Source of the DNA: a virus
Reading direction: 5' to 3' (one strand)
Virus record (IMG/VR): IMGVR_UViG_3300036669_000050
Span: 1-23,896 of that record
Length of the DNA stretch: 23,896 bases
In this document: positions 9,669 through 13,367 of the stretch, one piece after another
Position numbering within the stretch: the first letter of the stretch is position 1
Layout: each line of letters opens with the position of its first letter
The notes under the pieces: model-generated
The model's database searches: none
Seen by the model: only the letters and a program-made list of their open reading frames with translations
What the model was told of the DNA's origin: nothing
Program-made: the position numbers and the translations under genes

Positions 9669-10865
9669 TTATAATTTTATGACTTTCAATTGTGCCGCAT
9701 CGCGCACCTTCTCAGGATAGGCTTCTTTATAGTAATTGTCAACATCATTACGCCTATGCCCCATAAGCTCACGCAGTAAGTCTCCATCTACGCCTTTATC
9801 CTTTGCAGCACTTGCAAAGGTATGCCTGGCACATTTCATAGATATATCCTGACCAGTCACATCTGTAACCTTCACCATTTTTGCGGCTTTTCTCAAATCG
9901 CGCCTTGCATTATCTCTCCAAGTTCTATATCCATCCACATCTTTACGCCAGGGGAATAAGTAGGTGCCATTCTTACTGCCATACTCCTTTATAAAAGCCT
10001 TGAGCCTAGGAGTCACGAGCAAATCCATGTCACTGCCTCTTATCTTAGATCGCTCCAGATACAAGCGGCCTTTTATCACTTGCGATTTTTTAAGGAAATA
10101 AAGATCAGTGAGATCACAGCCACCTAGTTCAAACAATACCATGAAGGTATCTCTAGCACGTTTTTTAATGCCGGTAAGTTCTACCTGGTCCAGCTTTTTC
10201 ATTGCTTGTTGATCCAGTCTCTTTTTACGTGCTTCAAAGGATCGCGTGCTTACCTTATGCAATGGCTGCTTAAATGCATTAGAATCTGGAAGGTCATGGT
10301 CCATGATCATTTTAAAATAGACTGTTTTAATACGTGACATGTAACCCATCGCAGTGGCCTCTTTAAGAATTGGATCTTCCAGCAGTTTCTCTTGCAATTG
10401 TCTTACCCACCATTTTGTCACACTGCTATAATTTACTTCTTTGTAGTACTGCTTTAATTTTACCAGTACAGTATAATATCTTTTTATATGGCCAGCCACA
10501 CGATTACGTTCCATAAGATCTCCTTTGCGCTCATGGTTTTTCTGGACCAATTCCTTCTTTGAGATGTAATTCTCTAGCCATTCTATCAGTTCTGGATCTT
10601 TATCCTGTTCTTGCAATAGGAAATTGAGTACTCTATTAACATCATTTATGCGCTCCAGCTTCACTTGCCGCGCTTTAATCATGATGTCATTCATGTATGG
10701 ATATAATGTACTAAATTGCGGGTGTGAGCTGCTTATCATTTGCGCTTCTTCATTCCACTGTGCAGGAGTAGCATCACAAATTTTAGTTTGTTTTCTATCT
10801 TGCAAGTGCCCTACATGAAGGACCACTGCCTTTTTAGGCTTGATATATTTAAATCTAATCTTCAT
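9669..10865 (-). CDS. int: Tyrosine recombinase (integrase), IntDOT-like catalytic set
   Basis: A 398-residue site-specific recombinase. Residues 1-100 form the arm-type DNA-binding region, 110-205 the SAM-like core-binding domain and 220-390 the catalytic domain. Visible catalytic parts are a beta-hairpin Lys in ERSKIRG (about K274), R347 in CARHTFASA, GH at 369-370 in LMGHRRNDVDNYY and nucleophile Tyr at 378/379. At the normal Arg I site the sequence is GGCDLTDL with no arginine, and the usual His of HxxR is Lys (KCAR). IntDOT-type enzymes of Bacteroidota also lack Arg I. It recombines attP (tRNA-Arg half at 11021-11062) with the host tRNA gene; three arm-site repeats abut its start codon. 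Confidence 0.92.
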   Translation of the reverse strand: MKIRFKYIKPKKAVVLHVGHLQDRKQTKICDATPAQWNEEAQMISSSHPQFSTLYPYMNDIMIKARQVKLERINDVNRVLNFLLQEQDKDPELIEWLENYISKKELVQKNHERKGDLMERNRVAGHIKRYYTVLVKLKQYYKEVNYSSVTKWWVRQLQEKLLEDPILKEATAMGYMSRIKTVYFKMIMDHDLPDSNAFKQPLHKVSTRSFEARKKRLDQQAMKKLDQVELTGIKKRARDTFMVLFELGGCDLTDLYFLKKSQVIKGRLYLERSKIRGSDMDLLVTPRLKAFIKEYGSKNGTYLFPWRKDVDGYRTWRDNARRDLRKAAKMVKVTDVTGQDISMKCARHTFASAAKDKGVDGDLLRELMGHRRNDVDNYYKEAYPEKVRDAAQLKVIKL

Positions 10866-11490: not shown

Positions 11491-11898
11491 TTAAAGTATG
11501 TTTACTAATCTTTCAGCCACGTTAGTGTATCCCCTGTGTTTCCATTGGCAATTATCGTTTTTACGAGCAAATCTATCTATCTGACAAGTCATTTGATTGT
11601 TGATCGTAAATAAAAAGGAACTTTCACCAGTGATATCTGATTCAAATCCTAGGATTTGAGCAAATTGATCTTTTGTAATTTCAGACTCAAAAGTGATTGT
11701 TTTTCCAGAGACACTTTGAGTACGATTTAATTCTAACGCTACGCCATTGACACTTACTTTCATTGTGTCGCCATGTTCTGATATGACAGATATAGCAACT
11801 TCACTACGTAAATTGAAATTACTACCTCCTTTAAAGCCTTCAGTTCTTCCTATTACTAATTTTTGACCGTTTACTAGATTGTTGATTTGAGTTTTCAT
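11491..11898 (-). CDS. Isolated gene of unknown function (moron-like)
   Basis: A 135-residue protein, predicted mainly beta, starting MKTQINNLVNGQKLVIGR. Notable patterns are a Gly-rich segment TEGFKGGSNFNLRSEV (about 19-34), an alternating strand region VSVNGVALELNR, and a C-terminal part with two cysteines (C110, C121 by rough count) and basic residues (DRFARKNDNCQWKHRGY). No signal peptide, no membrane segment and no known family. It has its own promoter (11938-11967) and its own terminator (11459-11488), so unlike its operon-bound neighbours it is an independent transcription unit between lysis/tmRNA and attP. That is the usual place and design of a moron expressed in lysogeny or very early, such as an anti-defence protein, but this is inference. 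Confidence 0.65.
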   Translation of the reverse strand: MKTQINNLVNGQKLVIGRTEGFKGGSNFNLRSEVAISVISEHGDTMKVSVNGVALELNRTQSVSGKTITFESEITKDQFAQILGFESDITGESSFLFTINNQMTCQIDRFARKNDNCQWKHRGYTNVAERLVNIL

Positions 11899-11967: not shown

Positions 11968-12006
11968 CTATAAAAAGCAAACTTTAACACTTTTATTTTT
12001 AGGCCA

Positions 12007-12036
12007 TAAAAAAACCACCTCGTTAGAAGTGGTTTT
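12007..12036 (-). terminator. Terminator of the tmRNA-like gene
   Basis: On the minus strand AAAACCACTTC pairs with GAGGTGGTTTT (12036-12026 with 12021-12011) around a TAAC loop, followed by further T residues. It lies about 40 bases behind the tag stop codon, leaving no room for a tRNA-like 3' end downstream, which is key evidence that the tmRNA is permuted. Confidence 0.85.
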
Positions 12037-12039
12037 CAA

Positions 12040-12280
12040 AACTGTATCGTAGTTACCCGTGATTGCTTTGCGTCTTACGCTGCGGCTTTCAATTCTTGAT
12101 TCCAGTTGCCTGTTATCATCTTCTCACGCCTATATTTTGCGACTTTGCACCTGTCAATACCGTTCGACCCCATTTGCAGGTATAGTGCTGCATCACTTAA
12201 TGCACGGCGAGTGCTTGTGGAGTCGGGCGGAATCGAACCGCCGTCCAAAGTGCTGCCATCAAAAGCCTAGCAGCGTGTGA
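12040..12280 (-). ncRNA. ssrA: Circularly permuted (two-piece) tmRNA, predicted tag GNWNQELKAAA
   Basis: Minus-strand order is 3' tRNA-like part first, 5' part second. The T-arm GGCGG/CCGCC around TTCGATT (12242-12226) follows GGAC, and the acceptor strand CGACTCC ends at 12219 with discriminator A. After about 47 spacer bases comes GGGGTCG (12171-12165), which pairs fully with CGACTCC, including a G-U third pair as in tRNA-Ala and tmRNA. Then come a D-domain-like GGTATTGACAGG and CAAAGT (12147-12142), which pairs with ACTTTG (12251-12246) as helix P2. The tag frame GGC...TAA (12110-12075) encodes GNWNQELKAAA, with its stop in a hairpin GCGT-AAG-ACGC. Spacer removal would give a two-piece RNA that rescues stalled ribosomes. 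CCA is not encoded. Piece ends are approximate. Confidence 0.8.
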
Positions 12281-12284
12281 AATT

Positions 12285-12845
12285 TTAAATACGTCTCTTC
12301 CTATAATTCCAAAAATAAAATATTAGCCCACCTATGGCAACTACTGCTATGCCAATTAAGGACCATGCCAGGCTGCTCCATCCGTTAGGTTTTTCACTTT
12401 CGACTGCGAGCAGTTTTTTTTCAGCTTCAAGACGCAGCTGTTCCTGTTTCTTTTGCTTTAGGTCTATCAATGACTTGTCAATTAATGACTGTTTTTCAGA
12501 TTGTTTATTTTCAAGATCTTCTTTACTTTCTTTATTTGTTGTCTTGACTTCTTTAAAGTTGTTGAATGTCGTTGTCTTAACGCCTTCTTTAACGCTTTCT
12601 TCTATGCTTGCTGGCTTTGTAGTGTCAGATACTTTACCTTCAAACGTGGCGCTTATATCGCTTTTAATTTCAGTCGTTTCAGATTGCCGGACAGTCTCTT
12701 TCTCCATGTCTTTTTTTACGGACACTTTTACATCACTTTCCACGGACACTTCTGTTTTAACTTTTGAAACATCTAGTGCCTTTTTTCTGGTGCCACATCC
12801 TAAGATTAGGAAAACGGCAAATAATAAGATTATTTTTTTCATCAT
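12285..12845 (-). CDS. Probable unimolecular spanin (lipoprotein plus C-terminal membrane helix)
   Basis: A 186-residue protein with two membrane anchors at opposite ends. The N-terminus is a lipoprotein signal (MMKKIILLFAVF) with lipobox LILGC, so Cys17 would be lipidated and placed in the outer membrane. The C-terminus has a hydrophobic helix (about 158-179, ending in Trp/Tyr) and a basic tail YRKRRI, an inner-membrane anchor. Between them lies about 135 residues of charged, Lys/Glu/Ser-rich helical sequence. This is the design of u-spanins such as T1 gp11, which fuse inner and outer membrane in the last step of lysis. It follows the amidase gene directly (stop 12846, start 12845). No sequence homology is claimed; the call rests on topology and context. 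Confidence 0.7.
   Translation of the reverse strand: MMKKIILLFAVFLILGCGTRKKALDVSKVKTEVSVESDVKVSVKKDMEKETVRQSETTEIKSDISATFEGKVSDTTKPASIEESVKEGVKTTTFNNFKEVKTTNKESKEDLENKQSEKQSLIDKSLIDLKQKKQEQLRLEAEKKLLAVESEKPNGWSSLAWSLIGIAVVAIGGLIFYFWNYRKRRI
12310..12340 (-). promoter_or_regulatory. Promoter of the tmRNA inside the end of the spanin gene
   Basis: On the minus strand TTG (12340-12338), 20 bases, then TATTTTTG (12317-12310) match the Bacteroidota -33/-7 pattern. Transcription would start near 12303, about 25 bases before the tRNA-like part of the tmRNA. The tmRNA could therefore be made independently of the lysis transcript that also runs through it. Confidence 0.5.
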
Positions 12846-13367
12846 TTATTCTTGTATTTTTAAAAGCCATTCTTTTATAACGCACGCATATTCCTGCACA
12901 TCTTTAAAATTCAGAGACTCGCCATTATCTCCAAAAAACGGCTCCAGAATAATAGCGTCACAAGGCATTAAAGAAAGGAATACAAAACCACGACCACCTT
13001 TTGTAACTGTCTTTTCACCTCTATTTTTTACCTTATATTTTTTACTTATAATTTCATTAAATACCTTTCCATATCCTAAAGATCTGGCGTTTCCTTGATA
13101 TGTAACCGTTTCAGTTCCATTTGCAGTTCCATTAAAGAAATTAAAATGCAGCTCCACAATCAAATCATAATCACAAGGCTTTACCATTTCTTGTAAATCT
13201 TGCATCTGGGCAGTGTAACCTCTGGCGTTTGGACGCTTGTAAATATCAGCGACCATAGAAAGGCTTGCTGCAACTTCACAGTGATAAATGTATTCGCTCA
13301 TCCCTAAATATTTGGAGAAAGCGCCTGGCGACTTAAAGTCGTGTCCGATAACTATTGCTATATTCAT
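12846..13367 (-). CDS. N-acetylmuramoyl-L-alanine amidase (endolysin)
   Basis: A 173-residue Amidase_3-type enzyme that cuts the bond between muramic acid and the peptide stem of peptidoglycan. The first strand ends in the zinc ligand GHD (H9), the second ligand Glu is E25 or E31 (MSEYIYHCEVA), the third is H74 in VELHFN, and the catalytic Glu is E142 in IILEPFFGDN. There is no signal peptide, so it needs a holin to reach its substrate. It sits between the candidate holin and the spanin. The single-domain form without a cell-wall-binding domain is normal for phages of Gram-negative hosts. Confidence 0.92.
   Translation of the reverse strand: MNIAIVIGHDFKSPGAFSKYLGMSEYIYHCEVAASLSMVADIYKRPNARGYTAQMQDLQEMVKPCDYDLIVELHFNFFNGTANGTETVTYQGNARSLGYGKVFNEIISKKYKVKNRGEKTVTKGGRGFVFLSLMPCDAIILEPFFGDNGESLNFKDVQEYACVIKEWLLKIQE

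Follow-up and report, generated by a model that had tools for sequence, protein, structure and literature searches.

A phage-borne permuted tmRNA gene on an exchangeable cassette, and its probable kinship with the one-piece tmRNA of Bacteroidota

The 23,896-base virus record IMGVR_UViG_3300036669_000050, analysed here over its whole length (the window), carries on its minus strand a gene for transfer-messenger RNA (tmRNA, ssrA) whose tRNA-like parts are encoded in permuted order: the T-arm and the 3' strand of the acceptor stem lie upstream of the 5' acceptor strand, the D-domain and the tag frame. ARAGORN reported a single RNA gene in the window, the permuted tmRNA, which is laid out as follows:

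11984 to 12309, minus strand: permuted tmRNA gene, extent given by ARAGORN (tmRNA*, permuted), tag GNWNQELKAAA
12218 to 12251, minus strand: core of the acceptor piece (3' strand of helix P2, GGAC, T-arm, CGACTCC, A73), read from the sequence and the RF04321 alignment
12172 to 12217, minus strand: spacer of 46 nt beginning with CAA, presumably removed
12142 to 12171, minus strand: 5' end of the coding piece (GGGGTCG, D-domain with UAUUGAC, CAAAGT), from the sequence, RF04321 and co-folding
12075 to 12110, minus strand: tag frame GNWNQELKAAA plus TAA, resume codon GGC, from ARAGORN and a comparison of the three frames
12008 to 12036, minus strand: 11-bp hairpin followed by a T-run, terminator-like by its fold

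A preliminary description of this DNA had proposed a permuted tmRNA on the minus strand, and had suggested running ARAGORN in permuted mode together with the alpha, beta and cyano tmRNA models of Rfam. The observation is confirmed: besides the permuted call by ARAGORN, the Rfam model RF04321 (tmRNA_permuted) matched positions 12075-12277 with 59.3 bits (E 2.1e-9, cut-off 47), the sole Rfam match over a cut-off within the window. The one-piece model RF00023 remained below its cut-off (32.9 bits vs 47) and aligned only at model positions 180-374, its 5' part being absent. None of the subtype models RF01849-RF01851 (alpha, beta and cyano) exceeded its cut-off in the window, and the best subtype score, reported for the identical gene copy in the sister contig L005, was a partial beta match of 39 bits against a cut-off of 84. 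According to PMC11915505, RF04321 merges these three models. The window tmRNA agrees with RF04321 in gene order, tRNA-like domain, tag frame and a score over the cut-off, but differs from its consensus (UUCGAC and CCA) in having U before GAC, a glycine (Gly) resume codon and no encoded CCA.

On the minus strand, the 3' strand of P2 (ACTTTG, 12251-12246) is followed by GGAC (12246-12243), the T-arm GGCGG-TTCGATT-CCGCC (12242-12226), the acceptor 3' strand CGACTCC (12225-12219) and A73 at 12218. The acceptor 5' strand GGGGTCG occupies 12171-12165, ahead of a D-domain that extends up to the GAC at 12153 and of the P2 5' strand CAAAGT (12147-12142), and UAACA directly precedes the resume codon GGC. 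The full acceptor pairing with G-U at the third pair, helix P2, the T-arm and the tag frame, all of them noted in the preliminary description, were recovered: the acceptor stem has 7/7 pairs, including G3-U70, the alanine identity pair. The position given there for CCA addition, 12217-12219, was corrected to 12217-12215, which reads CAA, so that CCA is not encoded. As a 7/7 complement to the acceptor strand (G-U allowed) within 200 nt was present in 51/2000 dinucleotide shuffles, the acceptor stem alone is weak evidence, and it is the whole arrangement that is decisive. When the acceptor piece was co-folded with the leading 61 nt of the coding piece, both the 7-bp acceptor stem and P2 formed, with a binding energy of -17.3 kcal/mol vs a shuffle mean of -6.8, and 2/300 shuffles were as low. 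A chance match was rejected in view of the agreement between two independent programs and the recurrence of this form in related phages. The identity of the window RNA as a tmRNA is practically certain, and it probably works as a rescue RNA.

The TerL protein of the window has its best match in Cellulophaga phage phi39:1 (45.5% identity), and related TerL proteins were found at 14 genome loci, from Flavobacterium, Myroides, Paenimyroides, Aquimarina, Croceitalea, Pukyongia and one further Flavobacteriaceae, all of which we take to belong to that family. A Shine-Dalgarno-like motif precedes 2 of the 29 counted open reading frames (ORFs) of the window. In 13 of these 14 TerL-relative genomes, the one-piece model RF00023 was over its cut-off 13 times (13/13) and RF04321 not once (0/13). 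These results bear out the earlier assignment of the window to a Bacteroidota phage, as well as the statement that such hosts have one-piece tmRNA.

A phage as carrier, regarded as unusual in the preliminary description, turned out not to be so. Two degenerate patterns searched over viral contigs matched at least 119 and at least 120 stretches, and ARAGORN run on 290 loci and the window returned 224 tmRNA rows, 221 of them permuted (copies included; most of the 290 loci had originally been retrieved by a permuted-gene pattern). Two-piece phage tmRNAs are also published: a passage of PMC9004378 gives 402 of 18,146 phage genomes as encoding 133 unique tmRNA structures, of which ARAGORN classed 53 as two-piece, and passages of PMC11915505 give 79 unique phage tmRNA sequences in a 2025 database and permuted forms from three clades. 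Methylophilales phage Melnitz likewise carries a permuted ssrA; as described in a section of PMC9004378, that gene clusters with those of Alphaproteobacteria and is linked to a glutamine riboswitch, whereas the window tmRNA resembles the tmRNA of Flavobacteriaceae. Within the open-access literature (supplements excluded, passages of a few papers), no permuted tmRNA was found described in Bacteroidota or their phages, which does not prove that none exists in print. Tenacibaculum phage Larrie was considered as a published example and rejected, since the two words in question stand in separate contexts. Passages of PMC8776804 and PMC11590407 report a tmRNA in Cellulophaga phage Calle and Maribacter phage Panino, its form not being stated there.

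Among Bacteroidota phages, the window gene is not singular either, contrary to what had been proposed. The crAss-like phages cr10_1, cr60_1, cr114_1 and cr125_1 and Chryseobacterium phage MA9V-3 have permuted tmRNAs by ARAGORN, with Gly-start tags, and a further permuted tmRNA lies in a prophage-like stretch within a Flavobacteriaceae genome; the records of the five named phages say 'tmRNA' only. Crassvirales infect Bacteroidetes, according to the abstract of PMC10136315. The four crAss-like genes share with the window gene the permuted order, Gly-start tags and U before GAC, and differ in tags and phage family; MA9V-3 shares the permuted order and the Gly-start tag, and differs in the base before GAC, the tag and the phage family. 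Named phages searched by DNA with three tmRNAs gave matches of no more than about 30-50 bases, in the T-arm region; these searches served solely to bring out the crAss and Chryseobacterium tmRNAs already annotated. A further 11 distinct Gly-start tags of viral contigs, whose hosts we infer, fit the group alongside the window type, and that of contig L266 does not; the nearest to the window tag is GNPFLQSELKAAA of contig L103. As to protein clues to the host, L168 pointed to Flavobacterium phages, and L278 gave a best match to phage vB_RanS_PJN03 and others to Tenacibaculum, Flavobacterium and Cellulophaga phages; such clues were absent for L270 and L261 and uninformative for L103 and L229. As a separate observation, L105, L110, L123, L130 and L185 are permuted and have U before GAC, but their ARAGORN tags are implausible.

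The prophage-like case lies in G263, a genome of the family of Flavobacterium sp. SLB02, on a 1.6-Mb contig. Its permuted gene (tag GKVIQMNNAPVRLAA, spacer of 104 nt) is accompanied by a phage-type DNA polymerase, a helicase, DnaB and an exonuclease, with 4/10 scanned ORFs matching PHROGs, and the same genome has a one-piece tmRNA elsewhere (tag GEDNYALAA). In this stretch (L348, 9445-10102), the permuted call overlaps a tRNA-Met call and has a tRNA-Ile with anticodon TAT after it. RF04321 was over its cut-off in 1/395 genomes of the phylum, 1/397 of the family and 1/395 of the order, always G263; these counts are lower bounds, because only five candidates per genome were scored. The 29 below-cut-off loci of the phylum search were one-piece tmRNAs by ARAGORN in 26 cases, tRNAs in two and nothing in one. 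Cellulophaga phage phi38:1 (NC_021796; L372, 26805-27164) carries a one-piece tmRNA by ARAGORN, so both forms occur in flavophages. That tmRNA is absent from the annotated features shown for the stretch, and its tag call ends, oddly, in VGV.

On sequence criteria, the group to which the window gene belongs shares three traits with the one-piece tmRNA of Flavobacteriaceae, unlike other phage permuted tmRNAs: a D-loop with U before GAC, resumption at a Gly codon and a CCA that is for the most part not encoded. GAC is preceded by U in 20/22 permuted rows with Gly tags (six of the 22 being copies of the window tmRNA) and in 13/13 Flavobacteriaceae one-piece genes (as UUGAC), and by C in 184/185 permuted rows with alanine (Ala) tags. 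CCA is encoded in 3/25 Bacteroidota-type permuted rows, 147/154 other permuted rows and 2/24 U-type one-piece rows. The pair GGGGTCG/CGACTCC also occurs in 9/13 of the Flavobacteriaceae one-piece genes, which differ from the window gene in their one-piece order and in tags such as GENNYALAA. In addition, Shine-Dalgarno-like motifs precede 20/223 ORFs in contigs with Gly-start tags (21 rows) and 751/1775 in those with Ala-start tags (186 rows), copies included. G3-U70 is present in all 25 Bacteroidota-type rows, and at acceptor pairs 5, 6 and 7 these rows show changes in both strands, although their parsing required at least 6/7 acceptor pairs.

A tree was built from 77 columns and 117 rows. 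All 25 Bacteroidota-type permuted rows and 22/24 U-type one-piece rows fell on one side of a branch with support 99/97; the opposite side held phi38:1, another U-type row and every one of the 45 other permuted rows sampled. As the Bacteroidota-type label had drawn partly on the U base, a strict set was formed by dropping the seven rows without a Gly tag; there, 18/18 permuted rows stood with 22/24 U-type one-piece rows (support 99/93), and the approximately unbiased (AU) test rejected one clade of all permuted rows (p-AU 0.0026). The single permuted clade was still rejected when the U/C column and the resume segment were left out (p 0.00056), and when the acceptor strands were dropped in addition (p 0.027). 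We therefore read the window gene as a phage-borne permuted ssrA on an exchangeable cassette, within a group of Bacteroidota-phage tmRNAs that probably descends from the Bacteroidota one-piece tmRNA, and give this reading a probability of about 0.6. A separate Bacteroidota origin of the group is, by itself, slightly favoured, and these comparisons suggest that it is probably a fourth permutation lineage.

Several results weigh against this reading. Once the U/C column and the resume segment are taken out, the split vanishes; in MA9V-3 the base preceding GAC is C; and the tmRNA of phi38:1, which is one-piece, groups with the other permuted rows. In the tree the permuted rows do not come together as a single clade (6 changes), although such a clade was not rejected (p 0.365, a result separate from the p 0.0026 for all permuted rows). 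With few columns (77), an unsettled bootstrap and a long end branch, the placement of the window tmRNA is unsure. As to the fold, the minimum-energy co-fold lacks the T-arm hairpin, and a longer co-fold with its start shifted by one base was not significant (20/200 shuffles as low). Finally, all three signature traits lie at points of contact with host enzymes and may have arisen by convergence.

This last point leads to the main rival, namely that a permuted tmRNA was imported from Alphaproteobacteria, Betaproteobacteria, Cyanobacteria or their phages, and later converged on Bacteroidota hosts at the D-loop, the acceptor stem and the resume codon. The common traits sit where the host synthetase, SmpB and the ribosome act, permuted tmRNAs are numerous in other phages, and the beta model partly matches the L005 copy; the weakening of the split once the diagnostic columns are removed and the missing U of MA9V-3 point the same way. 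The lack of an encoded CCA, however, fits Bacteroidota too, and whether or not the diagnostic columns are included, a single clade of all permuted rows is rejected. Nesting within one other permuted lineage lies outside that test, which leaves room for it because permuted forms come from three clades (passage of PMC11915505). Overall, import is a serious explanation, yet clearly the less probable one.

The tags bear on a second rival, in which the RNA would act as a decoy or dominant-negative tmRNA, either by occupying SmpB or by adding a tag that escapes degradation. Only 6/19 distinct tags of the group end in LAA or MAA, vs 80/93 of other permuted tags (Fisher p 3.7e-6), and K or R occurs in the last five residues of 15/19 group tags, 19/93 other permuted tags and 3/27 one-piece tags from Bacteroidota sources, phi38:1 being included in the 27. 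The group tags include two Asp-start tags admitted by the U base, and p-values of this kind are too small, because related phages are not independent. The frequent lack of the usual tag end favours a decoy, and passages of PMC11915505 and PMC4131195 can be cited on the same side; DS6A, however, barely exceeds the tRNA-like domain, whereas the window gene keeps a complete tag frame, resume codon and stop. We consider a decoy unlikely.

That the gene is an accessory, exchangeable cassette follows from two sister contigs. The same tmRNA is present in L005. L004 matches the window at 97% identity across 11 kb to one side and at 89% across 7.4 kb to the other, but where the window has 255 bases it has 35; the hairpin with its T-run is retained and the tmRNA is missing. 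Counted in 100-base bins along the reversed window, starting at 11500, the identity between window and L005 is 99, 100, 100, 99 and 94%, while the four preceding bins reach 56-75% and the four following ones 30-44%. The gene therefore behaves as an exchangeable unit, given that a near-identical block of about 500 bases sits between diverged flanks and that the tmRNA is absent from L004. Selection was rejected as the reason for the near-perfect identity, since the flanks match poorly, which indicates recent exchange instead. Among 11 other TerL-relative records (L012-L022, several of them short fragments), no tmRNA match was found; 34 of the 46 TerL loci lay outside that search, one of which, L049, is the L005 contig. 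Separately, the window shares the first codons of ORF 11491-11898 with L004 and L005 and the remainder diverges abruptly, as though the start had been preserved and everything after it exchanged.

The neighbouring features are:

12310 to 12340, minus strand: promoter-like motif TTG-N20-TATTTTTG, weak
12285 to 12845, minus strand: gene upstream of the tmRNA, with a lipobox-like start and a C-terminal transmembrane (TM) segment, one-protein spanin-like by eye
12846 to 13367, minus strand: endolysin, by an Amidase_3 domain match
9669 to 10865: integrase gene, about 1.1 kb from the tmRNA

The promoter-like motif, which follows a presumed consensus, is weak because 1.7 such sites per strand are expected by chance across the window, and a terminator scan did not list the hairpin at 12036-12008. 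The gene at 12285-12845 had no Pfam match and only a weak match to a PHROG of function not known; together with the endolysin, this lipoprotein/TM gene agrees with one half of the earlier placement of the tmRNA, between lysis genes and attP. The last rival, that the phage integrates in the host ssrA and carries its 3' fragment as an attP relic beside an accidental coding piece, is very improbable: the integrase gene is near and a passage of PMC11915505 names ssrA as a known integration site, but the two pieces are both there, pair with each other and yield a tag frame, the T-stem differs from 13 host one-piece genes, and L004 has a related integrase (83%) but no tmRNA.

In tmRNA biology, tRNA-processing enzymes, CCA addition and alanine charging yield an RNA that SmpB and EF-Tu deliver to the ribosome, which is freed while the chain is tagged. 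For the window gene, host tRNA-processing enzymes would cut the transcript before GGGGTCG and after A73, with loss of the spacer; CCA would be added to the acceptor piece, and alanine charged at the G3-U70 stem. Host SmpB would then bring the two-piece RNA to ribosomes stalled during infection, where the tag GNWNQELKAAA would be added and the ribosome freed, alongside the host one-piece tmRNA. The phage may gain extra rescue capacity during infection, or altered tagging. A wider scenario, to which we give slightly less than even odds, is that a Bacteroidota one-piece ssrA was permuted in phages and, as a cassette, came to be distributed over Crassvirales and flavophages, with the one-piece form retained in host chromosomes, and that tags shifted from host-like LAA to basic, often non-LAA ends, the phage thus freeing ribosomes on its own terms.

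Phage-borne permuted tmRNA being already published, what is new here is the lineage. The record label 'tmRNA' can conceal the permuted form, the use of the cassette can be tested in sister phages with and without it, and the tag ends permit a direct test of whether phages release ribosomes without the usual degradation signal. If the proposed lineage is true, tmRNA permutation would have arisen once more, this time in the phages of a phylum in which the chromosomes sampled have the one-piece form.
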